From the NCBI GenBank assembly GCA_963281255.1, contig OY725488.1:9211524-9275523 (forward strand): a stretch of DNA of 64,000 nt, given 5' to 3'. Positions 28,834 to 52,374 of this stretch are shown in pieces (position 1 is the first letter of the stretch; every line of letters starts with the position of its first letter). Source of the stretch: Aphrocallistes beatrix. Taxonomy: Eukaryota; Porifera; Hexactinellida; Sceptrulophora; Aphrocallistidae. The translations under genes were made by a program, and so were the position numbers. Under the pieces are notes generated by a model, which worked only from the letters and a program-made list of their open reading frames with translations, searched no databases and was not told the DNA's origin.

Positions 28834-30626
28834 TTAGTAACTTTGGAATGTAAAGTTAGGATTACATGACACAATACATATTGTCCCGGAATGAGACACA
28901 GCAATACCAAAGGGTTCAATGAGTTCTCCTCTTGACTTCCCTTTCTTCCCTAGAGTGTGTAGGAGCTCACCGGAATGTGTGAATATCTTGATAGTGTCAT
29001 GTCCATAGTCACTAATCAAGATATTCATATCTGGATCTAAACAGAAGAAGAATGGTCTATAAATCAAACAACTCCCTGCATATCCTTGAGAGACACAGGA
29101 AATGAGCAGGTTTCCACTCCTGGATAATATTCTCACGCAGTTAGGACTCTCGTCTAGTACCACCAGTGTATCTGGACTCAGTTTCACGTCTAGAGGGGAG
29201 TCAAGGATTCCTGTCCCAATACAGGATTTGAAACTGAGGTTACCTGAGAATACACTAACTCTGTAGTTCCACGAATCTGCTATGAACACATCTCCATTGC
29301 TGTCTATACATAATCCTCTAGGATACCTTAGTTCTCCTTCAGCTCCTCCTTTAGTTCCAGCTCTGTTGATTAGTTGGAGAGTGTCTTTATTGAATTGGAG
29401 TAGAGAGTGTTGTACAACGTCTGTAACGAAGATGAATTCTTCTGTTACTGCTATTCCATATGGTAGACTGAGTACTTCCTGTCCAAACTGAGTAAGGAAC
29501 TCTCCTTGGAAGGACAGTACCTTTGCACAGCTGTTACCTGAATCAGCTATGTAGACTTTCTGAATCATTTCGTCCAATTCTAATCCTCTGGGATTTTTAA
29601 GCTCGTTATTTCCTGTTCCTAGCTTCACAGTTGACATGACGGGTCTTTTCTTAGTGGTGTAATCGGGACATATCCAGGTGTCGACATCTCCAAACTCAGA
29701 GATTTGAGATTGGAGGGTTGCTAGGGACGGACAATGGAATGTTAAGGTAGGGAGTTTAGTTGTTGTCTCTAGCTCCTTCTGTCCCTGTTGGTACAGCTGT
29801 CCTGCTTGCTGGTGCAAGGGGATATTCACGTTAGCCTAAAATGGAGAGAATCGGAATATATTCAAACAAATAGAAAAGATTCGAAAATGTTGATTTTACT
29901 TAGTGACATAACTTGTATTAGTTGTTAAGACTTTGTACATAATTTGAGTATAATTTCGAGTAAAGATGTATGATGAAGAGCCTCTACTATGATCATTCAG
30001 AATCTACTCAGGTAGTAGAGTCAGAGTAAAGTGGGATATATGCATATAGGAGTTTACGAAATAATAGCGCCAGTTCTAAATTTACGCGCTACATACACCT
30101 GAATGAAACCCAGATGCTAATTCTTTTGGAAAATCCTTGAATATCTGTTCCATAAGTTTTGCATCTCAACGTTTAAAACATTTAATTATATAAAATTCGG
30201 GGAATATGATAATTGAACAAAACAAAAGACACATTCACTGTTCTGAGACAAAACAGTGAATGTGCGAATCGCGAAATAAAAGCGAATAAGCTACGGTCTC
30301 CAGAATCTATTTCAATCGGAATGGAGACAACTGCTAATCATCACAACTTTATAAGCTAAATACGCAGTCATGAATAGTTCATTGTTAGAGAGACTGACCT
30401 TTAAGCTGAGTTCTGCCATGTGTCGCTGTGCTCTGAGCAATTCTTCCAGAGCTCCAATGCGAGTCTTCTCTTTGTTCAGGAACTCCTCTCGCATCTGGAC
30501 TACCTTCTGGAGGAGGGCGTCCTTCCTCTGGATCAGCTGATTGAACATGCGTTCTATCTGCTCTGCGACACGGTTGAAGTGTGCCATGGTGTCACTGGGA
30601 GCAGGTGGTGGCATATTAGTGGCCAT
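28834..30626 (-). CDS. Coiled-coil/NHL-propeller protein N1
   Basis: Two exons, joined 30626-30399 and 29835-28834, phase 0 (SLK|ANVNIPLHQ). The donor is AAG|GTCAGT, and the acceptor is an AG after a TCTCTCCATTTT tract. Exon 1 gives MATNMPPPAPSDTM and a coiled coil. Exon 2 finishes the coil (to about residue 110), then a six-bladed NHL propeller (about 145-409) ending NPNFTFQSY. No RING or B-box, so it is not itself a classical TRIM ligase. NHL propellers bind RNA or protein on one face. N1 has a 76-codon exon 1, four codons shorter than its paralogs (one LIEQ-type repeat missing). Intact, about 409 aa. No UBE2Q-like partner is directly upstream. Confidence 0.85.
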
Positions 30627-31340
30627 TTTTGTCTTCAGTTTTGCTGAGTTGAATTGAGTAGAAAGAATATAGTTTATCCTAGAAACTTTCTCTAATATAT
30701 GTAATCTGAGAATGCCATAATACGTCAATGGTTGCTATGGTAACCTGGGAATGTTATCTTATTTGCGTAAGTAGAAGCAACTCAGATTTCTCATTTGCTA
30801 TCTTTACAAGTGCTGACATCATCTTACTACGAGACAATATGTTCTAACATTGATTATATGCAGTGTAACATTGATTTAGTAATGTTGACGCGGAACGACA
30901 TGAATTATTACCCAAATTAGGGGCTTGATCATCGGCATCCTAATATCTTCATCTTCCAACTTGCACACAGTTAATCAGCTAGATCTTATAGTTGAACAAT
31001 AAGGAAGTCTAGACTAGAACATATACATACCATGGATGCATGAAGCAAGCGAATAGCTAACATTCTGTTATTTAGGGGCAATGTAAATGTATTATTTGTA
31101 TGGAAGTTGGTTGATTGATAAATTTGCTATGACTCATCTAACTATAAATCTCAGCCATTATTTAACCTTAAAACTTATCATAACCAATTGTTATTATAAG
31201 TTTCGCTATCTTAAATCTCTATCATAAGAAAGTAGGTCAGTTTAGGTAGAATTTAATTTGAAAGGTACAGTTGAGTTAGATCAAGAATACAGCAATAAGC
31301 TTCTAACTACTCTAGAATGAGCTGAACTAGTGACAAGGTG

Positions 31341-31979
31341 TTAGTGAGTTAGTTAGTTGGGTGGAGCTGTCATCTAACCTCCTCCGACAGGTAAATCGAA
31401 AGGGGCAACCGGCAGATCGATACGTCCGATCGGTAGATCGATAGGGGTGAGCACATCGAGGTGTGTGGAGAGAACTTCCTTCCGAGAAGAGTTCTTGTTG
31501 GTAGAGCTGAGCTGTTTGCCAATCATCTTACTGCTGAGTTAGTAGTTGAGAAGAGAGAGTAAAGTTGAGTAGAGTGGAGAGATGATTGGAGTGTATTCTT
31601 GATCGAACTGATCTCACTCAGAATCCGTTCTTATTTATACTCGTGTGCGTTGCTAAGGGGTTGATTGAGGTATGTCGAGTGGCAGGTTGAATATAATGCT
31701 GCATTGTAGAACGTATGTACAGTTGAATACCAATGGAGTAGCTTGACAACGAAACGGTTAAGCAATAAATTACAGAGAGTATAAATAAGACACATATTTG
31801 ACAGTTGAACAAGCACTCTCTCTCCTCTGCTCCACTATTCAACGGTCTTTGTGTATGACTGTGGAAGAGTGGAACAGCATTCCAATCTCTCCATCACTCT
31901 CTCTACATTCCAGTGTAGCAGTAGCGTTGCTGTGTTGTTACAGCAGTGTTTTCATTGGCTTATGAGACATTCCTGCAAC
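31341..31979 (-). repeat. LTR-like sequence (possible solo LTR fossil)
   Basis: On the minus strand it starts TGTTGCAGG, carries TATAAATAAG about 330 bp in, and ends ...CTAACA, so it resembles a solo LTR. I could not find a convincing target duplication, and it may instead be a promoter or other repeat. A second copy lies at about 38960-39600 within the segmental duplication. Confidence 0.25.
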
Positions 31980-32490
31980 AAATTACTCCACCTAATCTGC
32001 TTGAATTATCTATAAACTAAACGTACAATAAGCTCATAAGTCCATACCATTAACTGCAATATAGTGAGATCTATCCATAATGATGCAACACTCAATGATA
32101 GCATTAACTAGTTCCTAGTCAAGTTTAAGATGAATAGACATGTATACTATAAGTGGAGTAGACCAACTGGGAGGTTTCTCGACAAACTGGACATTCCTGG
32201 ATCGTAGTTAATAAAAAAACTGGACATCTTTTAAATTGAAATTATATTAAAGAAATATTGCAATATGCATAATAGTAACTAACTGGAATAGAAGTATTGT
32301 CAAATGCAATATAAGTACGTACGCATACTATAGTATGCTAGAGAAATGCCTCATCTTTCTGTACAGTGTACATTCAAATACATAATTACATCTACGGCAG
32401 TGTTATGACGGCGGAGGTAGTGAATATGACAACCAATTTGAAATTTGCATGAGAGGATTAAAATTCAATGGCACTAGATTTGCTCCAAGG

Positions 32491-33088
32491 CAGGGGTGCT
32501 CAAACTTTTAAATCTACGGGCCACTTTAAAAATTAGGCTCCGCCTTACGGGCCACAAATCATAGATCGCCTCTGGCTTTAGTTTAATCATTTTTCAAGCT
32601 ATACTATTTGACCTCATATTGCATTAACAATGGATTCTACTTGTAAATTCAGGTTATTGACTTAAATTATAATCTTTTGAATGGATTCGAATCTTTTGAT
32701 GTCTCTTTTGAACTCAGCTTGTTTTCTAGCAAGTGGACAATAGTACTAAACCTAGATTTGGGTATGCTATGTACTCTTCATAGTAGAATAACATTGCAGA
32801 AAAATCTACCTAAACTACGAAATTTAGCTAATAAGAGTGATGATGTTGCTTGGATTTAACTAATAAATCAATATCTGCTTCTATATCAGTCGTTGCTAGA
32901 CGAAGACACTGCTCCAAATGTGAATCAGTGATGGTTGATCTAATATCTATAATAGTATCTATAATTATTTCTATATGGTGTTTAGAAAAAACAATCATTA
33001 TCTGACGATTGAAGCACGTCAATCTACTGTATAATATGAATAATGAAAACAAGCGAATTATCCGCGGGCCACCGTTTGAGCACCCTTG
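32491..33088 (-). mobile_element. hAT element with transposase C-terminal relic
   Basis: Ends CAGGGGTGCTCAAAC and GTTTGAGCACCCTTG, target duplication CTCCAAGG (32483-32490, 33089-33096). The minus strand retains the C-terminal hAT dimerisation motif TDSHLEQCLRLATT-(x)4-ADIDLLVKSKQ, like ZBED5- or GTF2IRD2-type hAT proteins. Internally deleted. Confidence 0.9.
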
Positions 33089-33254
33089 CTCCAAGGAATT
33101 ATACAGAGACGGAAACATTCAATCCGACCAGAGGGAATGGAAGGTTCACGAGCAAACATATCATTGAACTTGAACTGAACGAACTGAATGCAAAGTTTTT
33201 AAAGAATTTACACTGAACGAATGCTAATGGTTGCCGAACGGTAGTTAACTAACT

Positions 33255-33848
33255 CAGTGGTGGGGAACCTGGGACCGCGACTCTTTCCAAACACTCTATT
33301 ATGGATCTCGCTTGTTAGTGATTGCACAGTACAACCTCGCTAATCCGGACAGCTCTGTTCCAATGTTCGAAAAAATCGTTCGGATTAGTGAAATAACACT
33401 AATTCAATAGGGCATTAATTATAATAAATTTGTATTGTTAGACTATTAAGGATATTATTTCGCTATGATTGCCTATTTAACGATGTTTTTCAATCTTATT
33501 GATAGATTTACGTTTTTAACCTTTATTCAAAGCATGGGAGAGAATAATAATATATTTTGGGGGTTCGGATTGGCGAGGTTCGGACTATCGAGGGTGTACT
33601 GTATTACAAAATGGGCCCGCCTAATGTTGGTGTGAAATTGATGCTGAATATCAATATATTTTCTATAATCATTATATAATGATTCAATTTATTTACTTAG
33701 TTATTTTACTTTTTATAATTATAATTTTGTAGTTACGTTGCTTCCATATAAGTTTCTAATGTCAGTTCTTGCTATGGCCATGGTGGCGTGACCTAACAAG
33801 AACTGACAGATTTGTGGCCCACTTAAGGATTAAGGTTGCCCGCCACTG
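33255..33848. mobile_element. hAT MITE with nested pogo/Tigger-like MITE
   Basis: Outer ends CAGTGGTGGGGAACC and GGTTGCCCGCCACTG, target duplication AACTAACT (33247-33254, 33849-33856). Inside, 33327-33601 has ends CAGTACAACCTCGCTAATCC and ATCGAGGGTGTACTG followed by TA, typical of pogo/Tigger MITEs. Non-coding. Confidence 0.85.
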
Positions 33849-34430
33849 AACTAACTAAACGAACAGACGATTAATCCGTAACATTTGAAAGTGAACTGAA
33901 CGAACTGAACTGAATAAAGATAAATATTGATTCATAAAATAGAAATAGATCACTAAGAGTGTTAATTCCAGACATCCCTCACGGAATCATGTCTGCTTGC
34001 TGTACTTAAACAAAACCAGGGCCTCAAGAAGATCTGCCGACATCTTTGTGCGGGCGGGGCGACACAGTCTAGAGGTGAACGAACAGAACAAAATAAACAA
34101 ATTGGACGCTAGTGGAGTTGAAGTTAGGAAGTGAACGTGAAAAAACTGAACGTGCGTCAATTTGAAATGAAATGAATTGCGTTTATTCAGTCCGTTCATG
34201 AACCTTTCATTCCCTGAATCCGACCTGTCCTGCAAGGTGTTTAGTGGTATCCATGGTTGCATCTAGCCACTCCCTCAGGGGTCTGAACATATTTTGGACC
34301 TCCTTCACCCCCTCTGAGATTCAGAAGTCTAGCCAGCCCTGCAGGAGCCACCCCTCAAGGGGGCTAGCACCCTGAAAGGATGTCCACCTTCTTAACAACC
34401 CTCTGAGATTAAAGGATGAATCCAACCCTG

Positions 34431-35253
34431 GTGGTATGCCGTACGGTACTGGCAGGTCATTGTGTGCTATAGCTAGTAATGTAGTTGTGCTCTACAGAAG
34501 TCCTCAGTCAATCATTGAATAATACTTGCACAAACTCGATAACAAATTGTACAAACAAAGAGCACTAACATCTCATTAACATTTTCATTCTAGCGGATTT
34601 ACATACGTAACTATCTCTATAGAACAGAAGCAGAACAACTTAAAACTTGAATCAAATTCCATACTTTACAAGTACAGGTCACTGTTTAATCGGGCTACCT
34701 TTGGCAGGACCGCAATAGCTCTCACACATAGAAGTTAATACAAATTATTTTCGGTTTATAGGGTTCACTGCTTAATCGGGCCAAAATGTCCTCTTTTTGA
34801 GTATTTGTTTGTCCGAATTAATTGAAGAATTGGAAAGTAGAGATATGTAATTGGCATGGAGGTCTCAAATGATGAGTTTATGATATATTGCGGAGATCTA
34901 AAGACGAAATTTTCACACCTCTGGGACAAAAAGACAAATTTTCACACCTATTTTATACAATGCATTCAAACTTTGACTGCAAGGATGTGTATCAAGTGGA
35001 TAGATAGTATTGATATCTCAGAGGTAAATGTTAGGAGTTCGCTTACAGTTTTGGCACTTAAATAATCAGCATAGACTGAAATATTGATATTTCACACCTC
35101 TGGTTAGTATGTTAATAGAGCTGCACATATCGGCCAAACAGCGATAAATACTGCCCACTTCAATAATAAATGAATTTCAAATTTTCAAATGAAATTAAGT
35201 GCATTCGCAATAATTTCAGGGAATTTGGGGAAAAAGCAACACTATTGCAGAAC
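34431..35253. other. Intergenic, weak MITE traces
   Basis: Two stretches (34678-34710 and 34760-34830, CACTGCTTAATCGGG...) resemble a decayed pogo-like MITE also seen near 57560-57690. No gene supported. Confidence 0.35.
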
Positions 35254-36420
35254 GGATCGCCGGAATTTGTCCTAAAAAAGTACTGGAATTTGTCCTAAAA
35301 TTCTGTATACTGGAATTTGTCCTAAAGAAAATCGAATATTGGAATTTGTCCTAAAGAAAATCGAATATTGGAATTTGTCCTAAACTTTAAAAACTGGAAT
35401 TTGTCCTAAACTTTAAATACTGGAATTTGTCCTAAACTTTAAATACTGAAATTTGTCCTAAACTTTAAATACTGAAATTTGTCCTAAACTTTAAATACTG
35501 GAATTTGTCCTAAACTTTAAATACTGAAATTTGTCCTAAACTTTAAATACTGAAATTTGTCCTAAACTTTAAATACTGGAATTTGTCCTAAACTTTAAAT
35601 ACTGAAATTTGTCCTAAACTTTAAATACTGAAATTTGTCCTAAACTTTAAATACTGAAATTTGTCCTAAACTTTAAATACTGGAATTTGTCCTAAACTTT
35701 AAATATTGGAATTTGTCCTAAACACTAAGTTGTTATTAAATTGTACTACCTAATGCTTGGAAATATTGGTGTTTAATATGACAATTATAATATCAGAAAT
35801 GAGACTAAAAGATAGTAGGATTATGATAAAAAATAATGAAAATATAACTCTTGATTTTTGGAAATTAACTCGAATAGATTCGTAATTTTATCGATTTTGG
35901 CAATGGATGGGCAGGAATGCTTTCTAAATAATGCACATCTTAGATAAATACTATTTTCACATTCTCTAGATTTTACATAGCGAAAACCTTCGCATTCATA
36001 GTTGATTGAATTTAGCTTTTTACCTTCGACCACTGAATATTCCATTATATGATTGAAAGAAATATAAATAATATTGATAACTACGAAATATCACTAGTTT
36101 ATATACGTATATAAGTACATATATTGTATGTATTGTTTAGATTTGACAGAATCAATACGAGACACAACGTCTTTGAAAGCTTTTTGGAATTAATTAATGG
36201 AATCACTAATATAATTTGTGTAAAGCATTCAACAGACATGGAAGTGTCATATCAAAACCGCTCTATTAATGTTTAAGATTATCCAGTACTTTGAATTTAG
36301 GACAAATTCCAATGTTGAATTTTATTTAGCACAAATTCCGGGATTCCATTTTAGGACAAATTCCAGTACTTAGAGTTTAGGACAAATTCCAATGTCAGTT
36401 AAGGCAAATTACGGTTTCCC
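35254..36420 (-). mobile_element. Foldback element with GGAATTTGTCCTAAA array and a FLYWCH fragment
   Basis: Flanked by TGCAGAAC (35246-35253, 36421-36428). The empty site is at 42144-42151 in the paralogous flank of N3. The left arm (35263-35730) is 18 copies of a unit of about 26 bp with core GGAATTTGTCCTAAAC. The right arm (36290-36410) has about five inverted copies. The outer ends are only loosely inverted (GGATCGCCGGAATTTG against GGGAAACCGTAATTTG). The middle carries a FLYWCH-like reading frame. Confidence 0.85.
35821..36045 (-). pseudogene. FLYWCH-like zinc-finger fragment in foldback element
   Basis: 74 codons starting MEYSVVEGKKLNSINYECEG. The order GF-RYV, then SIYLRCALFRKHSCPSIAKI fits the FLYWCH fold, with Tyr-Leu-Arg-Cys at the usual W-R-C and a C after eight residues; the final H-x-H is not evident. 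FLYWCH domains are common in Mutator-like transposases and in host proteins that bind DNA. The remaining parts of either are absent. It may be functional as a small protein, or a decayed capture. Confidence 0.5.
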
Positions 36421-36531
36421 TGCAGAACCATTCAAACTGTATTACATGACTTAATTCAAAATTAGGTTGAAATTTGAGGTAAAGAAATTTAATAGAAATA
36501 AACGAACACATGACTAGACAATAGATACAGG

Positions 36532-38250
36532 TTAGTAACTTTGGAATGTAAAGTTAGGATTTTTTGACACAATAAATATTGTCCCTGAATGGGACACAGC
36601 AATGCCACGCGGTTCAATGAATTCTCCGCTTGACTTCCCTTTCTTCCCTAGCGAGTGTATTAGCTCTCCGGAATGTGTGAATATTTTGATAGTGTCATTT
36701 CCCCAGTCACTAATCAAGATATTCATATCTGGATCCAAACAGAAGAAGAATGGTGTATTAACCAAACAGTTCGGTTCATATCCTTGAGAGACACAGGAAG
36801 TGAGCATATTTCCACTCCTGGAGAATATTCTCACGCAGTTTGGACTCCAGTCTAGTACCACCAGTGTATCTGGAATCAGTTTCACGTCTTGAGGGACGCG
36901 AAGGATTCCTGTCCCAATACAGGATTTGAAACAGAGGTTACCTGAGAATACACTCACTCTGTTGTTCCACGAATCTGCTATGAACACATCTCCATTCCTG
37001 TCTACACATAATCCTTTAGGAGCATTTAGCTCTCCTTCAGCTCCTCCTTCAGTTCCAGCTCTGTTGATTAGTTGGAGAGTGTCTTTATTGATTTGGAATA
37101 GAGAGTTGTGTCCCCAGTCTGTAACGAAGATGAATTCTTCTGTTACTGCTATTCCATATGGTCCACTGAGTACTTCCTGTCCAAACTGAGTAAGGAACTC
37201 TCCTTGGAAGGACAGTACCTTTACACAGATGTTACCTAAATCAGCTATGTAGACTTTCTGATTTATTTCGTCCAATGCTAATCCTCTGGGAAATTTGAGT
37301 TCGTTATTTCCTGTTCCTAGCTTCACAGCTGACACGACGGGTTTCTTCTTAGCGGTGTAATCGGGACATTTACAGGTGACGACATCTCCAAACTCAAAGA
37401 TTTGAGATTGGAGGGTTGCTAGGGACGGACATTGGAATGTTATTGGAGGGAGTTTAGTTGTTGTCTCTAGCTCCTTCTGTCCCTGTTGGTACAGCTGTCC
37501 TGCTTGCTGGTGCAAGGGGAGATTCAAGTTAGCCTAAAATGGAGAGAATTGGAATATATTCAGACAAGAAGAAAAAGATTGGGAAATTTGAATAATAAAT
37601 TGCATTGATAAATCTCTGCGGACAAATGACACTGCAACTGTATTCAAATACTAACCAAAAGTGTGAAAATGTGTATATATATATAAAAGCTAATAATCCA
37701 TAGTTAGACTCAAGCCTATTTTAAAGCAGAAATCAGTGGATATTTTTGAAAATCCACGGATTTCTGGTTTCTTCTCTGAGGTAAAGAATTTCAGAAAAAT
37801 ATAACATTTAATGCTACAGAATTCAGAAGTGACAATTGTTAAAGTTAAAGTTCACTGTTTAGAGACATACAGTGAATGTGCGAACCGAGAAATGAAAGCG
37901 AATAAGCTACTCCAGAATCTATTTCAATCGGAATGGAGACAACTGCTAATCATCACAACTTTCTAAGCTAAATACGCAGTCTTAAATAGTTCATTGCTAG
38001 AGAGACTGACCTTTAAGCTGAGTTCTGCCATGTGTCGCTGTGCTCTGAGCAACTCTTCCAGAGCTTCAATGCGAGTCTTCTCTTTGTTCAGGAACTCCTC
38101 TCGCATCTGGACTACCTTCTGGAGGAGGGCGTCCTTCCTCTGGATCAGCTGTTTGATCAGCTGATTGAACATGCGTTCTATCTGCTCTGCGACACGGTTG
38201 AAGTGTGCCATGGTGTCACTGGGAGCAGGTGGTGGCATATTAGTGGCCAT
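36532..38250 (-). CDS. Coiled-coil/NHL-propeller protein N2
   Basis: Exons 38250-38011 (80 codons, MATNM... to SLK) and 37533-36532 (333 codons, ANLNLPLHQ to TFQSY), phase 0. About 413 aa, intact. It differs from N1, N3 and N4 mainly at in-register blade positions: ELKFPRG, LSGPYG, TDWGHNSL, ELNAPKG, ADSWNNRV, ILRVPQD, LDWSPN, SDWGND, EPRG. The upstream 4.2 kb is a duplicate of that upstream of N1. The foldback element at 35254-36420 sits 110 bp past its stop. Confidence 0.85.
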
Positions 38251-41478: not shown

Positions 41479-42254
41479 AACTAACTAAACGAACAGACGA
41501 TTAATCCGTAACATTTGAAAGTGAACTGAACGAACTGAACTGAATAAAGATAAATATTGATTCATAAAATAGAAATAGATCACTAAGAGTGATAATTCCA
41601 TACATCCCTCACGGAATCATGTCTGCTTGCTGTACTTAAACAAAACCAGGGCCTCAAGAAGATCTGCCGACATCTTTGTGCGGGCGGGGCGACACAGTCT
41701 AGAGGTGAACGAACAGAACAAAATAAACAAATTGGACGCTAGTGGAGTTGAAGTTAGGAAGTGAACGTGAAAAAACTGAACGTGCGTCAATTTGAAATGA
41801 AATGAATTGCGTTTATTCAGTCCGTTCATGAACCTTTCATTCCCTGAATCCGACCTGTCCTGCAAGGTGTTTAGTGGTATCCATGGTTGCATCTAGCCAC
41901 TCCCTCAGGAGTGTGAACATATTTTGGACCACCTTTACCCCTTCTGAGATTCAGAAGTCTAGCCAGGCCTGCAAGAGCCACCCCTCAAGGGGGCTAGCAC
42001 CCTAAAAGAATGTCCACCATCTTAACAACCCTCAGAGATTTAAAAACTGCCCCACTTCAATAATAAATGAATTTCAAAATTTCAGATGAAATTAAGTGCA
42101 TTCGCAAAAATTTCAGGGAATTTGGCGAAAAAAGTAATACTATTGCAGAACCATTCAAACTGTAATAAATGACTTAATTCAAAATTAGGTTGAAATTTGA
42201 GGTAAAGAAATTTAATAGAAATAAAAGAACACATGACTAGACGCTAGATACAGG

Positions 42255-44351
42255 TTAGTAACATTGGAATGTAAAGTTAGGATTTTTTGACACAATAAAT
42301 ATAGTCCCGGAATGGGATACAGCAATGCCACAGGGTTCAATGAGTTCTCCTCTTGACTTCCCTTTCTTCCCTAGCGCGTGTATAAGCTCTCCGGAATGTG
42401 TGAATATCTTGATAGTGTCATGTCCCCAGTCACTAATCAAGATATTCATGTCTGGATCTAAACAGAAGAAGGATGGTCTATAAACCAAACATTTCTGTTC
42501 ATATCCTTGAGAGACACAGGAAGTGAGCAGGTCTCCACTCCTGGAGAAAATTCTCACGCAGTTAGGACTCCAGTCTAGTACCACCAGTGCATCTGGACTC
42601 AGTTTTACGTCTAGAGGTAAGTTAAAGATTCCTGTCCCAATACATGATTTGAAAAGGAGGTTACCTGAGAATACACTCACTCTGTTGTTCCAACAATCTG
42701 CTATGAACACATCTCCATTCCTGTCTACACATAATCCTTTAGGAGCATTTAGCTCTCCTTCAGCTCCTCCTTCAGTTCCAGCTCTGTTGATTGGTTGGAG
42801 AGTGTCTTTATTGAATTGGAATAGAGAGTGGTGTGTATAGTCTGTAACGAAGATGAATTCTTCTGTTACTGCTATCCCATATGGTCTCCTGAGTACATCC
42901 TGTCCAAACTGAGTAAGAAACTCTCCTTGGAAGGATAGTACCTTTACACAGATGTTACCTAAATCAGCTATGTAGACTTTCCGAGTTATTTCGTCCAATG
43001 CTAATCCTCTGGGTATTTGAAGCTCGTTATTTCCTGTTCCTAGCTTCACAGCTGACGCAACGGGTTTCTTCTTAGTGGTGTAATCGGGACATTTCCAGGT
43101 GACGACATCTCCAAACTGAGAGATTTGAGATTGGAGGGTTGCTAGGGACGGACATTGGAATGCAATGGTAGGGAGTTTAGTTGTTGTCTCTAGCTCCTTC
43201 TGTCCCTGTTGGTACAGCTGTCCTGCTTGCTGGTGCAAGGGGAGATTCACGTTAGCCTAAATTGGAGAGAATCGGAATATATTCAGACAAATATAAAAAA
43301 GTTTAGAAAATTTTGATTAATGCATTGATAAATTTCTCTAGACAAATGAGAGTGCAACTGTATTAAAATACTAACTAAAGGTGTGAAAATGTGTATATAT
43401 AAATGCCAATAATGCATAGTTAGACTCTAGCCTATTTTAAAGCACAATGTTCTTGGAGATTCGTCCCAGTTAATCGGAATGGATGTTATTTTTTTCCCTC
43501 TTCTTATCCATAATACAAAATCCTCGAATTTGTAGACTCCATTATGAGAACAAATATTGTCATGTTCCATTCCTCAATTGATGAGTCCTGCATTCTGATT
43601 GGTGGCATGATATGGGTGTGTTTCATTGCAGGCGCTGGACGGGCTGACAAGAGACACAGAGCGCCGTGTGAAGGACTCCGCCCTCCTCATCCTCCCGTGC
43701 GTCACCTGCTTCATCCACACCTCCCGCTTCCGGCAGGCCCGCCTCCAGACGCTGGAGATGCTGCGCCTCATCTCGGACGGTCCCATCCTGGAGCGCGTGG
43801 TGCCGCACATCATCTACTTCCTGCGGGAGGACAGGCTTGGGGGGGAGGAGGCTGTGGTGAGGACGCTGGCCGTGGAGACACTCTCGCACTGTGTCTCCCG
43901 GACCAGGACAAGCAAATGAAGGAACTGACAATTGCTAAGGTTACAAAACATGTTCTGAGAGTAAAACAGTGAATGTGCGAACCGTGAAACGAAAGCGAAT
44001 AAGCTATGGTCTCCAGAATCTATTTCAATCGGAATGGAGACAACTGCTAATCATCACAACTTTCTAAGCTAAATACGCAGTCACAAATAATACATTGTTA
44101 GAGAGACTGACCTTCAAGCTGAGTTCTGCCATGTGTCGCTGTGCTCTGAGCAACTCTTCCAGAGCTTCAATCCGAGTCTTCTCTTTGTTCAGGAACTCCT
44201 CTCGCATCTGGACTACCTCCTGGAGGAGGGCGTCCTTCCTCTGGATCAGCTGTTCGATCAGCTGATTGAACATGCGTTCTATCTGCTCTGCGACACGGTT
44301 GAAGTGTGCCATGGTGTCACTGGGAGCAGGTGGTGGCATATTGGTGGCCAT
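42255..44351 (-). CDS. Coiled-coil/NHL-propeller protein N3
   Basis: Exons 44351-44112 (80 codons) and 43256-42255 (333 codons), phase 0, donor AAG|GTCAGT. About 413 aa, intact. Blade variants: ELQIPRG, LRRPYG, TDYTHHSL, ELNAPKG, ADCWNNRV, IFNLPLD, LDWSPN, SDWGHD, EPCG. The intron (43257-44111) has had part of its ancestral sequence replaced by a foreign GC-rich gene fragment on the opposite strand. UBE2Q-like gene Q2 ends about 610 bp upstream on the same strand. Confidence 0.85.
43631..43919 (+). pseudogene. HEAT-repeat exon fragment resembling VPS15/PIK3R4, inside N3 intron
   Basis: A GC-rich island preceded by a splice acceptor (GTTTCATTGCAG, AG at 43630-43631 region) reads about 96 codons in one plus frame: ALDGLTRDTERRVKDSALLI, then ARLQTLEMLRLISD, ILERVVPHIIYFLRE, VRTLAVETLSHCV. 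This matches the HEAT region of VPS15 (IALDRIVPYL... VRxxAxRTLTxC pattern from memory), the regulatory subunit of the VPS34 lipid kinase. Some flanking intron came with it (from about 43445). No other exon is present. It replaces about 100 bp of the intron found in N2. Likely inserted during repair or carried by a transposon. Confidence 0.55.
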
Positions 44352-44959
44352 TTCTGTGTTCAGTTTTGTTAGGTTGAATTGAATAGAAAGAATATATTTG
44401 ATCCAAGAAACTCTCTCTAATATATGTAATCTGAGAATGCCATAGTCAATGGTTGCTATGGTAACCTGGGAATGTTATATTGTTGCATGAGTGGAATGAG
44501 TTCAGATATCCCAGTTTCTACATTACAAATGCTGACATCATCTTACTTAGAGATATTCTGTTCTAACACTGGCATTATTTCTGAATTTATTTTTATGTTA
44601 TGTGAATAAAATATTTCTGAGAAAAATTATGCATTGTTTCAAAAAAATGTTCTTCACAGAGATTCTGTGCTGTGTCACAGGCTAGGAATGTGGAGTAACT
44701 CCCATTAATTTTATATTTTTAAATGTTTTTTAATGTCTATGAGGGGGTTTTCATCACTAATTTGTTGTGTTAACAAACTTGGAATATTTGTGCATATATT
44801 AAACTGACTGACAATAAATTTAATATAACTAAAACAAAATACAAACAAATACAAAATTGAATTCTGGAAAGAAAACAATTAAATTGCAAATCATCTAATT
44901 TGTGCAGGAAGGCGTGAGTTGCAATTTTGGAAGAGAGCTCCTATCTACGCTGAAGTCAT
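44352..44959. other. Spacer between Q2 and N3
   Basis: Matches 52375-52877 between Q4 and N4 over most of its length, apart from indels. It must hold the N3 promoter and the Q2 3' region. No separate gene. Confidence 0.5.
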
Positions 44960-45658
44960 CTACACTGCATTCCAATCTATATCCATTAGACCCAGGATTG
45001 AGTCGTGCATGAACTTGGCTCTTTCGAAGGAATAACCATCTACTGCGTCAGTGCCAGTATCAACTCGAGCATTTCCATCCACCATGGATTGGGCCAGCTG
45101 GAAAAACAGCTGAAGCAGTTCTATCGCAGGGGAGTAGGTTTGTGTGCTGCACAGAATTTCACATTTCTTGGGCAACAGAACATCTAGGAAGATAGCACCT
45201 CCGAGGATCACATGTCCCGCTTGGATGGCTGGAGATACAACTCGGAGAAAAGGGGGAACGACAGGGTACTCGGGTGGGAACTTTAGCTCAATAGTCACGT
45301 TATTATTGCTTGGATAATGCATGGCTAGTTCCCTATTCAGATGACAAGGTTCTGGGAATTCCTTGATCTTCAGATGCCATATATGGATGTCGTTGTCTAT
45401 CAGTCTCAAGTGATAGGAGCTCGTGGATGTATTCACTAATCCAGATAGATATATAAACTTTAACTCATGAAAGAGTCGATTTTCGCATAAATGATTGATA
45501 GGAATGTCTCTAGCTGTGATAAGATTCATCCCGAAACCACTTAACACATTCACCTTATTAACCAAGTTGGCATTGCTATCAGAATCGTAATTTATTAATG
45601 GATCGAAGCAAGTAGTGTCTTCATTATCAGAGTAGTTTTCTTCATCACTACTGTCCAT
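44960..45658 (-). CDS. UBE2Q-like protein Q2, C-terminally truncated
   Basis: 232 codons. The acidic N-terminus MDSSDEENYSDNEDT is 30 residues shorter than in Q1. The UBC-type core is nearly identical to the other copies, with GGAIFLDVL (Phe at the catalytic Cys position). Compared with Q4, two bases are missing just after the Val codon of DWNAV, so the frame stops at once and loses the last 28 residues. The core is complete, so the shorter protein might still fold. Confidence 0.75.
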   Translation of the reverse strand: MDSSDEENYSDNEDTTCFDPLINYDSDSNANLVNKVNVLSGFGMNLITARDIPINHLCENRLFHELKFIYLSGLVNTSTSSYHLRLIDNDIHIWHLKIKEFPEPCHLNRELAMHYPSNNNVTIELKFPPEYPVVPPFLRVVSPAIQAGHVILGGAIFLDVLLPKKCEILCSTQTYSPAIELLQLFFQLAQSMVDGNARVDTGTDAVDGYSFERAKFMHDSILGLMDIDWNAV

Positions 45659-45908
45659 AACTATCGTTAGTTGCTATTGAAGGATGGAGTATATTGGTTC
45701 TATAGCTATATCAATCCTATATATATACTTGATGCTATAGAATATGATGTGAATAATATTATGCAACATTGTGCCATTATACTAATTGGTAAAAAGACTT
45801 CACATTATTATTATGTGAGAGCGTTTAGTTAAGAAATTTAGTTATACAAAGTATTAATTAAGCCAGGGATAATTTATAGATTTCTACAACCACTGAGGGT
45901 TAATATAA
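45659..45908. other. Q2 upstream region
   Basis: The minus-strand TATATATATA near 45716-45727 is the likely TATA box of Q2. The rest is the upstream flank. Confidence 0.4.
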
Positions 45909-46337
45909 AGTCCACTTCCGAAAATCGGGGCTCCCTCAAACCGGGGGATACCGCAAACCGCGGCGCATCCGGGAAATACGGTTGTGTTAAATACAAATTA
46001 CACTCGGAAACCGGGGCGAGTTTGGATGATATTTTTCTTTGCAAAATTATGTTTTTAGATTTAAAACATTCCATTTGTATATGCTTAATGTATGAAGAGT
46101 TGTTACACAGCATTTATGGGTGTGGGTGCCATGACGAATTAGAGTCAAAGTACAAATGTTTACTGTCATCAATGTAATACCTATGAGACAGACTGATTGT
46201 GTAGCATGTACATGCGTATGTTCTATACAAGGGCGAAACAATAGGTTCGGCGGGTATGTGAGAGCCCTGTCACTTTTTGGAGTGGTCTTACTATAGCATA
46301 ATGATTGAGGGTGCTAGTTTACACGGACCCAAAATTA

Positions 46338-46980
<643 letters not shown>

Positions 46981-47599
46981 TTCTCTTAAAATGCTTAGTT
47001 TTTGTCACGGCTATACAAACTTGATACAGCACATCTAATCACTCGTAAACCGCGGCGCCCAGCTCTGGTCCCGAGGTGCCCCGGTTTTCGGAAGTGGACT
47101 GCATTAGATAAGATTTGATGTAAGGATTATTATGTAACATTGTGTCATAAACCTAATTTTCAAGATGACTACATATGAAGATTGGTGGTCCGAGGCGTAG
47201 AGAGGTTGCGGCACATGACACTACAATAACATGTGGTGCCAAAGGTACTTCATTGGAACAACTTACATGCATAGGAATGTGGATTTCCTCATAGCATTAT
47301 TACACGGACCCACATCTTGTGACAATTTTTTAAAATAGCCTTCAACTGTTTTTATCGTAATGGAGCGGCATAGCTGCCATTTTGGCATGAATTGTCCATT
47401 TTTTGATACAAGCATGGAAATTGGCAGTTAAAGATAAATATATTATAAAAAGATGTGGATATGGAGGCATCGCGAATTTTGAGTCTTTTCAAAGATGGCG
47501 GGCATTTTTATTGAAGCATGTCCGCCGTTTTGGCCGGTCTTTTGCATGTATTAATTTCGTATTAGGCAATATCAGAAGCTTTGAAATGACATGATAGAC

Positions 47600-47945
47600 C
47601 TACTCTACTATAAAATAGAGAGCCCGACTAAAAAGAGTAAGAAAATTTCCTGTGGGGGTTGCAGGGAAAAATTCTATTTTGCCCCGAATAAAATTAAAAA
47701 ATAAACTTTACACATATGGTCATGTGACTCATATAATTACTGGACACCCAACAACCGGAAGTGATGACATTTTGCGAAAAAAATGTTGACGGCGCACATC
47801 TACACCATAAAGAGATCCTACATGCGAAATTTGGTAAAAATCGGACTGTTAGATTTCGCAGAGTAGCGCGCGTACGGACATACATACATACATACATACA
47901 TACATACATACATACATACATACATACATACATACATACATACAT
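47600..47945. repeat. Repeat ending in (CATA)n microsatellite
   Basis: 47600-47875 has the look of a mobile-element tail (GCGAAATTTGGTAAAAATCG, AGTAGCGCGCGTACGGAC) running directly into about 16 CATA units (47879-47944). The single-sided microsatellite end resembles the 3' end of a SINE- or Helentron-type element. The 500 bp before it (47101-47599) show nothing clear. Confidence 0.5.
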
Positions 47946-48026
47946 TTAATTTAAATAGCAGTAGAACTAAATACAAACAAATACAAAATTGAATTCTGGA
48001 AAGAAAACAATTAAATTGCAAATCAT

Positions 48027-48424
48027 CTAATTTGTGCAGGAAGGATTGAGTTGTAATTTTGGAAAAGAACTCCTATCTACGTTGAAGTCATCAAACACTG
48101 CATTCCAATCTATATCCATTAGACCCAGGATTGAGTCGTGCATGAACTCCACCATGGATTGGGCCAGCTGGAAGAACAGCTGAAGCAGTTCTATCGCAGG
48201 GGAGTAGGTTTGTGTGCTGCACAGAATTTCACACTTCTTGGGCAACAGAACATCTAGAAAGATAGCACCTCCGAGGATCACATGTCCTGCTTGGATGGCT
48301 GGAGATACAACTCGGAGAAAAGGGGGAACGACAGGGTACTCGGGTGGGAACTTTAGCTCAATAGTCACGTTATTATTGCTCGGATAATGCATGGCTAGTT
48401 CTCTATTCAGATGACAAGGTTCGA
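48027..48424 (-). pseudogene. UBE2Q-like relic Q3
   Basis: Begins in the middle of the UBC-type core (EPCHLNRELAMHYPS) and retains GGAIFLDVLLPKKCEI with the same Phe. An internal stretch of about 22 codons between LAQSMV and EFMHDS is deleted in frame, and it ends like Q4 (LQLNPSCTN). The N-terminal half is replaced by unit A sequence (48425-48490, TTGTTGTTATTGTTTGAGAA). A recombinant fragment of a UBE2Q-like gene and its flank. Confidence 0.85.
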
Positions 48425-48719
48425 ATGTGTTGTTGTTATTGTTTGAGAACAAAAAAGGTTTTGACAAATCATTTCCAAATAATGATTTTCTGGGCAAAGT
48501 TGCATATTTATGATATTTTTTTAATTGTTAACAAGTCACTTCAAGGTAGATACACCACAATATTTGAAAGCTTTGAATAATTTCATTCAGAGTTGCACGC
48601 GGGGCGGGCTGGCCGAGTTTTATTTTATCAACGACGAGTTTTATCAGTCCGCGGGCTTTGCGGGATGATTTTTTTGTCGCGGGCCAATGGCCCTCAGTAG
48701 GCCCACACGATACCTACTA

Positions 48720-49397
48720 CTGTATTTCTCACTCGATTATCCGAGATAGTCAATCAATTATCCGAGATAGTCAATCAATTATCCGAGATAGTCAATTGAT
48801 TATCCGATAAAATTTGATCCAGTTAATTTAGTGTAGATTTTATTTTTCACAATTATATGTATTCAGATAAATATTATATCCGCTCGGGATTCAATTAAAT
48901 TTATAAGATAACCTAATGTTTCTTGGTTTATCTTTCTCCCCTTTGAACCACCTCGCGGTTTGGTTGTATACTGCCTAAAACTGCAAATGCGATATACAGT
49001 AACCTTTTTAACATCATAGAGTTCGGATATTTGCCCATAACTAAGTCCTGTTTCATGAGCTTTGATCAACCTTGAGCGGATTTCATCACTGATTGCTTTA
49101 CCTCCTCTTCTGACAGGAGTAGATTCAGAAATATTTGATGTGTTACTTGCCATATGAAATTAAGTTAACAACGATTTGATTCCAAAATAATTCTCCATTT
49201 CGCATTTTATATTTAATCAATTATGTAAATACATACAATACCCTTTCATTGTGTGCAGAATCAGGCGAACTGATTGGTACATAAATATTCGGATAATTGA
49301 TTGGCCATCTCGGATAATTGATTGGCTAGCTCGGATAATTGATTGACTATCTCGGATAATTGATTGACTATCTCGGATAATCGAGTGAGAAATACAG
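48720..49397 (-). mobile_element. Tc1/mariner-type element with iterated CGGATAATTGATTGA arms
   Basis: Flanked by TA on both sides (48718-48719, 49398-49399). Ends CTGTATTTCTCACTCG and complement. Three or four copies of CTATCTCGGATAATTGATTG follow in each arm, in opposite orientation. The centre encodes the N-terminal DNA-binding part of a transposase. The catalytic part is gone, so this is an internally deleted derivative. Confidence 0.8.
48863..49153 (-). CDS. Transposase N-terminal paired-type HTH protein (truncated)
   Basis: 96 codons starting MASNTSNISESTPVRRGGK. Residues 20-57 (DEIRSRLIKAHETGLSYGQI, then LYDVKKVTVYRI) form the first helix-turn-helix of a paired-like DNA-binding domain. 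RGGSKGRK is the usual basic linker, and INQETLGYLINLIES starts the second HTH. The DDE catalytic domain is absent. ATG and frame are intact, so the product could bind the terminal repeats without cutting, as a repressor of related elements; that is inference. Confidence 0.65.
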   Translation of the reverse strand: MASNTSNISESTPVRRGGKAISDEIRSRLIKAHETGLSYGQISELYDVKKVTVYRICSFRQYTTKPRGGSKGRKINQETLGYLINLIESRADIIFI

Positions 49398-49894
49398 TAG
49401 TACTACAGTACTATTCAATGAATGTCAGGTAAGTCATAAATACTTAATTTAACTGACCATCTTGTACTTTATGTCAGTGGTTTTCAACCCGATTATTCTC
49501 CAGATACTTATCGCCCATCTCAACGCTAGTGTAACTACACAATTTGCGTAATCAATGAAAGTGATTAAACTTATATGTTTTGAAGAATTGACTAATCTTA
49601 ACGTTGTGCTGATGACCCTTAAATTTTCACATACCGGACTTATAATGACTGCTAGGAGAACTCTTCTTTCGCCGAATTATGTGTCGGCATTATAATTTAT
49701 TGCTTCACGCATCGAACTGGATTCTGCTAGAATTCAATCATTAGTTTATTAAAATACTTATGGGCTTTGTCAATACGTACTCTCTATGAGGTACAAAGGT
49801 TTGTATGGGAAAACAAACGTTCTGGATTCTTACGGGCTGCGGGCTTTATTAAAATTGCGGGCCGCGTGCAACTCTGATTTCATTGCATTCTCTG

Positions 49895-50068
49895 GAAATA
49901 TTGAATATTGGCAAGGAGGAGTGGAACATGGATGGATGGGGCATTTTAAAAATCTTCAACAATGAAGCTGAAGAGATGGAATGTACGTTTCAACATCTAA
50001 TCACAGAGGACATTGAAAATATAAGAACTCACATCAAATATTACTTTGATGAAGACATGTACTGGTGA
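49895..50068 (+). other. Coding-like fragment of unknown protein
   Basis: Frame EEWNMDGWGILKIFNNEAEE, then HLITEDIENIRTHI to a TGA at 50066-50068. A second, interrupted copy spans 25562-25642 and 26529-26600. Protein-like composition (acidic, amphipathic) and preservation of frame between copies suggest it was once an exon. I do not recognise it. Confidence 0.35.
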
Positions 50069-50204
50069 GACATTAGCAGTGGATTCAATAGTCTCTGGGA
50101 ACAAATCTGGAGTTTCATCTCTGAGGATCAATTCCTTCTGAAAGAGGAATGTAATATTTCCAGTTTTGTTTGTAATTATATTCATGCCCGCATCTCAATA
50201 TAAT

Positions 50205-50275
50205 ATACATAAGTGCGCTTCGCTGCTTACGGATACAAAGTGTCCGTAGATTCGCCCTGCGAGTGCCTGGGGATA
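50205..50275 (-). repeat. Helentron-like 3' end fragment, degraded
   Basis: GTGCGCTTCGCTGC, GGATACAAAGTGTCCG and GCGAGTGCCTGG keep the pattern of the GC-rich end; the body is absent. A similar relic is at 26743-26810. Confidence 0.5.
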
Positions 50276-50559
50276 CAAAAAAGGTTGATTGCTTTAATTC
50301 TCTACTAAAAAGTATAATTTCCAACATGCTAGTATAAGGAATATATATATGGTCCAGATTTGGTGCAATTATGACCGATTGAATTTTCAGGAGGGAGCAG
50401 ACGAACGGACGTTTGACAACGATCATGACAAAAGGCATCTCTTATAGTACTATGAGCTGCACTAAAAATGACTTAATTCGTAATCTAAAACTTTTTTGAA
50501 ATTTTAAGCAAGAAAATATAATAAAAATATAAAACACATGACTGGAATCTAGATACAGG

Positions 50560-52374
50560 TTAGTAACTTTGGAATGTAAAGTTAGGGTTACATGACACAA
50601 TAAATATTGTCCCGGAATGGGACACAGCAATGCCATAGGGTTCAATGAGTTCTCCTCTTGACTTCCCTTTCTTCCCTAGTGTGTGTATAAGCTCTCCGGA
50701 ATGTGTGAATATCTTGATAGTGTCATGTCCATAGTCACTAATCAAGATATTCATATCTGGATCTATACAGAAGAAGAATGGTCTATTAACCAAGCAGTTC
50801 GGTTCAGATCCTTGAGAGACACAGGAAGTGAGCAGGTCTCCACCCTTGGAGAAAATTCTCACGCAGTTAGGACTCCTGTCTAGCACCACCAGTGTATCTG
50901 GACTCAGTTTCACGTCTAGAGGTAAGGATAGGATTCCTGTCCCAATACATGATTTGAAACTGAGGTTACCTGATAACACAATCACTCTGTAGTTCCTACA
51001 ATCTGCTATGAACACATCTCCATTCCTGTCTACACATAATCCTTGAGGACTATTTAGCTCTTCTTTAGTTCCAGCTCTGTTGATTAGTTGGAGAGTGTCT
51101 TTATTGAATTGGAGTAGAGAGTTGTGGTTCAAGTCTGTAACGAAGATGAATTCTTCTGTTACTGCTATTCCCCATGGTCCACTGAGTACTTCCTGTCCAA
51201 ACTGAGTAAGGAACTCTCCTTGGAAGGATAGTACCTTTACAGACCTGTTACCTGAATCAACTATGTAGACCTTCTGACTTATCTCGTCCAATGCTAATCC
51301 TGTAGGATATCTAAGCTCGTTATTTCCTGTTCCTAGCTTCACAGCTGACACGACGGGTTTCTTCTTAGCGGTGTAATCAGGACATTTCCAGGTGATGACA
51401 TCTCCAAACTCAGAGATTTGAGATTGGAGGGTTGCTAGGGACGGACATTGGAATGTTATTGGAGGGAGTTTAGTTATTGTCTCTAGCTCCTTCTGTCCCT
51501 GTTGGTACAGCTGTCCTGCTTGCTGGTGCAAGGGGAGATTCAAGTTAGCCTAAAATGGAGAGAATCGGAATATATTCAAACAAATAGAAAACGACTCGAA
51601 AATTTTGATGATAAATTGCATTGATAAATCTCTGTGGACAAATGCGAGTGCAACTGTATTTAAATACTAACCAAAGGTGTGAAAATATGTATGTATAGAT
51701 GCTAATAATCCATTTATCTCATTAAAAGTTCGATTTTACAAAGTGAAATAACCAGGGTTGCCGTGAGAATGGAATTTCAATTCCCAATCTCACAGAAACT
51801 CACAGAATCCCACATGTGGGAATTCCCATAGCCTTAAAGTAATTCTCATTCCCATCCTGGCAACACACAGTTCAAAACAAATTGGAAACTAATCAATTGA
51901 ACGTGGAGTGGTTCTACAACAGTTTCAGTCTGAAAATGTTTTCGACATAGCAGTAATTTAATACGCTATTTTGATAGTCTCAAAATAAATGAACAAATAA
52001 AAACCAAAAAAAGTGGGGGAACCAGAGCCCCCCCAGACCCCCCTGTTCCGACGCTCCTGGAGACAACTGCTAATCATCACAACTTTCTAAGCTAAATACG
52101 CAGTCATAAATAGTACATTGTTAGAGAGACTGACCTTCAAGCTGAGTTCTGCCATGTGTCGCTGTGCTCTGAGCAACTCTTCCAGAGCTTCAATGCGAGT
52201 CTTCTCTTTGTTCAGGAACTCCTCTCGCATCTGGACTACCTTCTGGAGGAGGGCGTCCTTCCTCTGGATCAGCTGTTCGATCAGCTGATTGAACATGCGT
52301 TCTATCTGCTCTGCGACACGGTTGAAGTGTGCCATGGTGTCACTGTGAGCAGGTGGTGGCATATTAGTGGCCAT
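50560..52374 (-). CDS. Coiled-coil/NHL-propeller protein N4
   Basis: Exons 52374-52135 (80 codons; PPPAHSD where others have PPPAPSD) and 51549-50560 (329 codons), phase 0. About 409 aa, intact. A four-residue deletion in blade 3 (RAGTKEELNS where others have RAGTEGGAEGEL). Blade variants: ELRYPTG, LSGPWG, TDLNHNSL, ELNSPQG, ADCRNYRV, ILSLPLD, LDRSPN, SDYGHD, EPYG. Its intron holds a hAT-like MITE. Q4 ends about 500 bp upstream on the same strand. Confidence 0.85.
51754..51866. mobile_element. hAT-like MITE in N4 intron
   Basis: CAGGGTTGCCGTGAG ... CCATCCTGGCAACAC, related to 28251-28372. After it, 52005-52062 is a C-rich piece (AGCCCCCCCAGACCCCCC) not found in the other NHL introns. Confidence 0.5.

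Follow-up and report, generated by a model that had tools for sequence, protein, structure and literature searches.

Four closely related genes, N1 to N4, lie on the minus strand of the stretch of Aphrocallistes beatrix DNA that was analysed (the window, 64,000 nucleotides). Each has two exons, the first for a predicted coiled coil and the second for a six-bladed NHL propeller (Table 1), and all four pass the Pfam cut-off for NHL (4/4). The original prediction had placed the propeller genes between positions 28834 and 52374. These coordinates are correct, and 52374 is the first base of the N4 start codon on the minus strand; the coiled-coil exon upstream of each propeller exon adds to that gene picture. 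Exon 2 of N3 serves as the reference for site numbering. Exon 2 of N4 is four residues shorter, and in the alignment the gap falls within a top D-A loop.

Table 1. Exons, introns and propeller of the four NHL genes (positions in the window)
Feature	Position	Strand	Support
N1 exon 2, NHL propeller	28834..29835	-	open frame; Pfam NHL E 2.3e-17
N1 intron, GT..AG	29836-30398 (563 nt)	-	splicing gives an open 409-aa protein
N1 exon 1, predicted coiled coil, ATG start	30399..30626	-	splice model
N2 exon 2, NHL propeller	36532..37533	-	open frame; Pfam NHL E 1.1e-20
N2 intron, GT..AG	37534-38010 (477 nt)	-	splicing gives an open 413-aa protein
N2 exon 1, predicted coiled coil	38011..38250	-	splice model
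N3 exon 2, NHL propeller (locus L009)	42255..43256	-	open frame; Pfam NHL E 5e-21; AlphaFold2 pLDDT 90.4
N3 six-bladed propeller, exon 2 residues 67-332	42261..43058	-	AlphaFold2 model and site-wise dN/dS
N3 intron, GT..AG	43257-44111 (855 nt)	-	splicing gives an open 413-aa protein
N3 exon 1, predicted coiled coil	44112..44351	-	splice model
N4 exon 2, NHL propeller	50560..51549	-	open frame; Pfam NHL E 3.6e-23
N4 intron, GT..AG	51550-52134 (585 nt)	-	splicing gives an open 409-aa protein
N4 exon 1, predicted coiled coil	52135..52374	-	splice model

The AlphaFold2 model of N3 exon 2 is a six-bladed propeller, and Foldseek agrees with the NHL fold. The top matches among solved structures are the NHL domains of Thin, Lin41 with RNA, TRIM71 and TRIM2. 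A structure prediction for the full-length paralog L025 has long helices at 13-80 and 85-102 in addition to the propeller. Pfam scans of the first exons of N1, N3 and N4 and of six further full-length members found no RING, no B-box and no NACHT or effector domain in these proteins; only NHL and other propeller-type models scored above the cut-off. The whole genome has 24 B-box matches, compared with at least 403 NHL loci.

The NHL family and its variable positions

The genes belong to a large and clustered family. At least 403 distinct NHL loci are found in the 100.5 Mb genome, an approximate count that was made from match start positions after removal of presumed repeat rows and that includes fragments and the copies that carry stops. 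Another family locus lies within 20 kb of 294 of them. Ubiquitin-conjugating-like genes near the NHL genes were rejected as a general partner, with close copies present only at 9.19-9.27 Mb of contig C1. The genome also has two matches to nuclear-receptor zinc fingers, as against none in 14 control genomes, of which those named are prokaryotes; two nuclear receptors are also known from demosponges, and NHL proteins from sponges.

Codon analysis covered 64 paralogs in four groups. Group A, the N3 subfamily, comprises 14 of 16 near-full-length copies; L018 and L024 were dropped for stops, and four fragments were omitted. Group C6 has 25 loci (22 on contig C6 and three on C4), group C2 has nine (eight on C2 and one on C17), and group C3 has 16 of 103 matches (14 on C3, one each on C1 and C10). 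Loci L001-L008, L018, L024, L049, L060-L084 and L101-L104 are outside every group.

The four genes of the window differ at recurring, in-register positions of the blades (slots). The slot residues quoted for them in the original prediction all agree with the translated exons, and 22 of the 25 quoted positions vary among N1-N4, the other three being constant letters within the quoted motifs. The slots are not a chance pattern, as positive selection is found at them in three other groups of the genome as well (with only five sites in group C3). A second set, of 50 proteins about 54% identical, also has its highest variability there: all 30 of the most variable propeller sites are on the top face and 27 of the 30 are slots. 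The further claim that variation is limited to one face holds as an enrichment and not as a confinement. Among N1-N4, 71 of 266 propeller positions vary, including 37 of 92 in the top loops and 34 of 174 elsewhere (Fisher p 3e-4), and the quoted slots make up 22 of the 71. Across the four groups, each of the 64 genes has a distinct combination of slot residues.

Selection on the propeller

The framework of the propeller is under purifying selection, while diversifying selection acts on one face, in its D-A and B-C loops. Propeller codons with a posterior of at least 0.9 for dN>dS were placed on the AlphaFold2 model. The 64 paralogs yield 80 such codons, 69 of them in D-A or B-C loops. The expectation that sites of elevated dN would cluster on the top face is borne out by 79 of the 80, which lie in the top half, including all 23 from group A. 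By group they number 23 of 266 codons (A), 28 of 265 (C6), 24 of 265 (C2) and 5 of 255 (C3). Allowing omega>1 raises 2lnL by 325 in A, 958 in C6 and 278 in C2. Group C3 (16 genes) is weak, with only five positive sites and a top-loop bias that is not significant (p 0.19).

A held-out comparison, in which slots were set from three groups and dN/dS was measured in the fourth, gave slot values of 2.83 (A), 1.59 (C6), 3.66 (C2) and 1.09 (C3). Values for the rest of the propeller were 0.47, 0.23, 0.49 and 0.33, respectively. The slots were above the rest of the propeller as predicted, exceeding 1 in three groups and being close to 1 in the fourth. With sequence-disjoint pairs, the p values were 4.5e-4 (A), 0.010 (C6), 8.8e-4 (C2) and 0.54 (C3). 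Top-loop codons other than slots have dN/dS of 0.45-0.84. Residues enriched at the slots are Trp (29.6-fold), Tyr (7.8-fold) and Arg (3.2-fold), and the acidic residues Glu (6.0%) and Asp (5.6%) are also frequent there.

An artefact of the tree or of recombination was rejected by simulated nulls for groups A and C6 together with tree-free pairwise counts. The simulations used one and two trees with five replicates each; omega was set at 0.1, 0.3, 0.6 or 1, and branches were made 1.5-fold longer. The false sites numbered 0,0,0,0,0; 0,0,1,0,0; 0,0,1,0,0; and 0,0,4,0,0, so that the nulls give zero to four where 23 (A) and 29 (C6) were observed. A PHI-like recombination test was positive in C6 and C3, and not in A (p 0.13) or C2 (p 0.90, with only 34 sites). 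Recombination in C6 and C3 may inflate tree-based site tests but not pairwise ones.

Silent rates in the top loops and in the rest of the propeller are 1.23/0.95, 1.44/1.18, 0.94/0.86 and 1.94/1.21 in the four groups, and pairwise pS is high in the B-C loops (0.232 in A, 0.313 in C6). Because these values are somewhat raised in the top loops, mutation may be modestly higher there. Fourfold silent diversity near and far from slots is 0.123/0.076 (A), 0.114/0.116 (C6), 0.038/0.028 (C2) and 0.088/0.109 (C3), and there is no consistent rise next to slots across the four groups. Together with slot dN/dS, this disfavours local hypermutation as the main cause.

Possible roles of the variable face

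N1-N4 probably belong to a repertoire of small recognition proteins that is encoded in the germline. Selection on the face agrees with the original proposal of diversifying binding specificity; binding and a receptor role are inferred. The top face may be the ligand-binding face, as in RNA-binding TRIM-NHL relatives and the WD40 protein HET-E, and each paralog may have its own specificity. The proteins would act inside the cell, and the coiled coil may dimerise, so that each molecule would carry two faces. Microbial or viral molecules are the probable ligands, with self or allogeneic ones less likely. Duplication and point mutation, joined in some groups by exchange of tracts between copies, would generate the variety on which selection then acts, and a mutator would not be the main source. 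Since RING and B-box are missing in the scanned members, output would need a partner or occur by binding and sequestration. A wider proposal, on which we are more evenly divided and lean slightly against, is that NHL propellers with a hypervariable face, several hundred of them and germline-encoded, are antibody-like or VLR-like modules of a previously undescribed recognition system. A coiled-coil scaffold would present a combinatorial binding face made of six blades, and the system would apparently occur in two or more lineages, having arisen in parallel to the fungal WD40 HET receptors.

Several observations count against a repertoire. These are the weakness of group C3, the somewhat raised silent rates of the top loops, the recombination in C6 and C3, the spread of variation beyond the face in N1-N4, the lack of a visible effector domain in the scanned proteins, and the few slot differences in putative allele pairs (see below).

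The paralogs might instead have diversified in their RNA targets, each binding a different RNA, such as that of a transposon or virus, in a sequence-specific set for silencing or restriction like Brat/TRIM71. The RNA-bound Lin41 and Trim71 NHL domains among the top fold matches and the enrichment of Arg at the slots point in this direction. However, Glu and Asp are also common and Trp and Tyr lead the enrichment, so that protein binding fits at least equally well, and RNA targets seem rather unlikely.

Allorecognition, in which individuals would be highly polymorphic at these loci and a mismatch of top faces would signal non-self as in fungal het-d/het-e, is consistent with a clustered, fast-changing family and with selection in the same loops of HET-E (PMC1805685). 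It is judged improbable on a small comparison between assemblies, which lends little support to the self/non-self role suggested originally. Of 40 proteins from the same species (P0001-P0040), 24 are 100% identical to an examined locus of the genome. Five differing putative allele pairs, which match this genome to proteins of another assembly and are not proven alleles, differ mainly off the slots (11 of 67 differences at slots), compared with 24/45, 21/38, 24/41 and 24/50 in four pairs of closest paralogs. The sum excludes P0014/L053 (8/25 at slots), which is likely a mosaic. On the other hand, slots make up some 9% of the protein (39 of about 412 residues), and 11/67 (16%) is not below chance. 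Both assemblies may derive from one individual, and for this reason the allele pairs are weak evidence against allorecognition.

An arms race, in which the propellers bind one host partner and the slots record escape from a fast-evolving antagonist rather than many specificities, would also produce dN>dS restricted to one face, but it is very unlikely given that hundreds of loci are kept and 64 of 64 slot sets are distinct, beyond what escape at one interface requires. Relaxed constraint or local loop hypermutation after duplication, without selection for change, would suit the copies with stops, the C3 slot value, the silent rates raised in four of four groups and the fourfold diversity near slots in A and C2, but it is scarcely credible against held-out slot dN/dS that exceeds 1 in C6 and does so by a wide margin in A and C2, lower values at other top-loop codons, and the inconsistent fourfold pattern.

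Comparison with known systems

The nearest relatives are the TRIM-NHL proteins (TRIM2, TRIM3, TRIM71/LIN-41, Brat and Thin), which likewise have a coiled coil followed by NHL and are the top fold and sequence matches. RNA binding by the Lin41, Trim71 and Brat NHL domains takes place on this top face; the titles of the matched structures state the binding itself. The scanned family members have the predicted coiled coil of class VII TRIM proteins but appear to lack the RING and B-box. TRIM-NHL proteins are also encoded by few conserved genes, whereas this family is large and fast-changing. If the proposed role is right, a propeller otherwise known from conserved developmental RNA regulators has become the basis of a large germline recognition repertoire.

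Animal immunity offers examples of large, clustered families whose recognition surfaces vary, including sponge and sea-urchin SRCR proteins, NLRs, primate TRIM5, fish TRIM PRYSPRY proteins and lamprey VLRs; the SRCR family is reportedly expanded. Here the recognition module would be an NHL propeller, with no sign of somatic assembly or of a known signalling domain. An open-access literature search turned up no account of NHL propeller faces under diversifying selection, nor of such an NHL expansion. The family is relevant to the way in which animals that lack antibody-type immunity distinguish friend from foe, and the exact codons make a ligand search, population genetics and structural work directly testable. 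In N3 exon 2 numbering, the positions predicted to contact a ligand are 80-83, 99-102, 124-126, 140-143, 171-173, 188-191, 212-215, 229, 259-262, 277-278, 307-309 and 324.

The closest precedent is the HNWD family of the fungus Podospora anserina. HNWD proteins carry a NACHT and an effector domain, while the scanned NHL members have only a coiled coil besides the propeller. The HNWD proteins (HET-E, HET-D and HET-R) are a WD40 propeller family of ten members that functions in allorecognition, and diversifying selection acts on a small number of positions in each blade, which lie on the top platform in the D-A loop and the B-C turn (PMC1805685). The WD40 repeats evolve in concert, while the sponge propeller has six distinct blades, and ten fungal members compare with at least 403 loci in an animal. 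The sponge family is selected in the same two loops (69 of 80 positive sites, with C3 weak). If the role is right, NHL and WD40 propellers have each become diversified recognition faces by way of these two loops.

Selection on the propeller

Sites of positive selection in the NHL family cluster on the top half of the propeller. AlphaFold2 with a 52-sequence alignment models the NHL exon of N3, one of four NHL paralogs in the window (N1-N4), as a six-bladed propeller (mean pLDDT 90.4, pTM 0.83). The best solved folds are the NHL domains of Thin, Lin41 with RNA, Trim71, and TRIM2 (TM 0.71-0.76 by query length). In this model the strand limits place the D-A and B-C loops at the top and the A-B and C-D loops at the bottom, and divide each strand into a top and a bottom half; the faces are thus a topological assignment from strand order, not from surface exposure. 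Codons were aligned in four paralog groups, A (the window subfamily, 14 genes), C6 (25), C2 (9), and C3 (16), and a site was called positive at a posterior of at least 0.9 in a FUBAR-like grid model written for this analysis. Positive codons in the propeller number 23/266 in A, 28/265 in C6, 24/265 in C2, and 5/255 in C3, and outside it 0/67, 1/146, 3/153, and 0/160. As originally predicted, the sites with elevated dN lie on the top face: the top half, strands counted, holds 23/23, 28/28, 23/24, and 5/5 of them. The top loops themselves contain 19, 26, 21, and 3 (Fisher p for enrichment 1e-6, 1e-11, 3e-8, and 0.19). All 10 strand sites are the residue following the proline where strand A begins (positions 83, 126, 173, and 262, N3 numbering), and only one propeller site lies away from the top half, position 268 of C2, in a bottom loop. 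In the three groups where it was run, a model with omega free to exceed 1 gained 325 (A), 958 (C6), and 278 (C2) in 2lnL.

A further test, free of any tree, defined the recurring variable positions, or slots, in three groups and counted pairwise changes at them in the group left out. Held-out slot dN/dS over all pairs is 2.83 in A, 1.59 in C6, 3.66 in C2, and 1.09 in C3. It is 0.45-0.84 at non-slot top-loop codons and 0.47, 0.23, 0.49, and 0.33 in the rest of the propeller. Sequence-disjoint pairs give slot values of 2.42 (p 4.5e-4), 1.60 (p 0.010), 3.29 (p 8.8e-4), and 1.02 (p 0.54). Simulations with no positive selection (20 alignments in total, A and C6) produced 0-4 false sites per alignment, versus 23 real sites in A and 29 in C6. 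A PHI-like test detected recombination in C6 and C3, and did not detect it in A (p 0.13) or C2 (p 0.90, only 34 sites).

A modest local mutator may contribute to the top-loop variation, as every one of the four groups has a somewhat higher modelled silent rate in its top loops than outside them. However, 4-fold silent diversity (next to slots/distant from them) is 0.123/0.076 in A, 0.114/0.116 in C6, 0.038/0.028 in C2, and 0.088/0.109 in C3. Since it is raised in A and C2 but not in C6 and C3, there is no consistent rise beside slots. The data can be explained without a strong local mutator.

Compared with the framework, slots in A, C6, and C2 hold more Trp (29.6x), Tyr (7.8x), Arg (3.2x), and Cys (2.3x), and Val, Pro, Leu, and Ala are scarce there. 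Such a composition recalls binding surfaces, for example antibody paratopes. The slot combination is distinct in every gene (14 in A, 25 in C6, 9 in C2, 16 in C3). Paralogs share on average 0.34-0.48 of their slot residues, although a single C3 pair has 0.92.

Gene structure and family size

N1-N4 are two-exon genes according to a splice model built from the sequence, with the NHL frame as second exon and introns of the form GTCAGT...TTTAG. The predicted coiled coil of the first exons starts MATN, and the second exons match the Pfam NHL repeat. Neither RING nor B-box turned up in a Pfam scan of the N1, N3, and N4 first exons and of six other full-length family members. The model of L025, a full-length relative, has a long helix (13-80) and a second helix (85-102) followed by the same propeller (pLDDT 89.8, pTM 0.70). 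Many other relatives have a single open frame of about 400-450 codons, coiled coil included, and further ones have frames of about 300 codons. An excerpt of a TRIM survey (PMC3503706) describes malin as a RING and NHL protein without B-boxes, and traces malin and other TRIM-like genes back to typical TRIMs that underwent duplication and deletion.

Features of the window
Feature	Position	Strand	Remarks
N1 exon 2, NHL reading frame	28834-29835	minus	
N1 exon 1, coiled coil	30399-30626	minus	intron 563 nt; open protein 409 residues
N2 exon 2, NHL reading frame	36532-37533	minus	
N2 exon 1, coiled coil	38011-38250	minus	intron 477 nt; open protein 413 residues
N3 exon 2, NHL reading frame	42255-43256	minus	
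N3 exon 1, coiled coil	44112-44351	minus	intron 855 nt; open protein 413 residues
N4 exon 2, NHL reading frame	50560-51549	minus	
N4 exon 1, coiled coil	52135-52374	minus	intron 585 nt; open protein 409 residues
Ubiquitin-conjugating-like/RWD-like gene	21156-21947	minus	
Ubiquitin-conjugating-like/RWD-like gene	44960-45673	minus	
Ubiquitin-conjugating-like/RWD-like gene	48027-48527	minus	partial
Ubiquitin-conjugating-like/RWD-like gene	52878-53678	minus	
GC-rich open stretch	43611-43919	plus	within N3 intron, opposite strand
Reverse transcriptase, RNase H, and integrase domains	59-3034	plus	long frame
Formin FH2 domain, nearly complete	5902-8136	plus	open frame, single exon

The genome (100.5 Mb, 28 contigs) has at least 403 distinct NHL loci, merged from searches with protein queries from several subfamilies and including fragments and copies with stops. 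More are likely, as scoring stopped after the top 101-121 of the 2012-2174 first-look candidates. Two matches to the nuclear-receptor zinc finger, a domain specific to animals, mark the genome as that of an animal. Another NHL locus lies within 20 kb of 294 of them, and B-box matches number 24 genome-wide. In the window subfamily 16 copies are near full length, and those besides N3 are 80-88% identical to it. At G000:C12:4250346-4265110 there are five NHL copies at an exact spacing of 3380 bp, four with identical scores, which would be either a tandem array of very recent origin or a repeat in the assembly.

The ubiquitin-conjugating-like genes form a small local array interspersed with the NHL genes. 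UQ_con scores of the three non-partial copies (24.2-25.3 bits) are just below the 27-bit cut-off, and close copies occur at C1:9.19-9.27 Mb only. The stretch in the N3 intron looks HEAT-like by eye and may be an exon inserted from another gene; it has no match in PDB or Pfam. The frame with reverse transcriptase we take to be a Ty3-like retrotransposon polyprotein.

Protein relatives and putative alleles

A protein search returned 886 relatives, of which 120 were listed (P0001-P0120). The first 40 are mostly from the same species as the window, and 24 are identical to a fetched locus. P0041-P0120 are mostly not from this species: P0049, the one searched genome-wide, has no match above 55%, and only P0057 (70%) and P0095 (78%) of the 80 exceed 65% identity to a fetched locus. 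Without these two, both short, mean protein-level entropy in the other 78 is 2.42 bits at slots versus 0.67 in the rest of the propeller. In the 50 with at least 70% likeness to P0049 it is 1.99 versus 0.36, and the 30 most variable propeller sites are all top-face, 27 of them slots.

In putative allele pairs, 11 of 67 differences fall at slots. This share is far under that of four paralog pairs (24/45, 21/38, 24/41, and 24/50) but not under the slots' share of the protein (about 9%), and if the pairs are allelic it speaks against strong allelic polymorphism. The sum excludes P0014/L053 (8 of 25 differences at slots) as a likely mosaic. All 25 differing residues of this near-identical pair lie within residues 122-220, which may reflect gene conversion (tract exchange) or an assembly mosaic.

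A candidate binding repertoire

We read the NHL family as a germline-encoded repertoire whose binding proteins have diversified in specificity, because its selection pattern is like that of HET-D/HET-E and NHL relatives bind RNA, as the titles of solved structures show. The ligands would probably be non-self molecules. The weak signal in group C3 and the somewhat higher silent rates in top loops count against the repertoire reading. So does the variation among N1-N4 alone, with 34 of 71 variable propeller positions outside the top loops; variation limited to one face, as first proposed, holds for nearly all positive sites but not for these four genes. Searches of an open-access literature library listed no description of such an NHL propeller repertoire. 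NHL is among the domains drawn in a sponge paper, according to its immune-receptor figure legend (PMC8242945).

The closest parallel is with HET-D/HET-E of Podospora. There, according to an excerpt of PMC1805685, diversifying selection acts on four residues in each WD40 repeat; two belong to the D-A loop, the other two to the B-C turn, and all sit on the interaction platform. The A. beatrix family has the same selection pattern but a different propeller, NHL instead of WD40.
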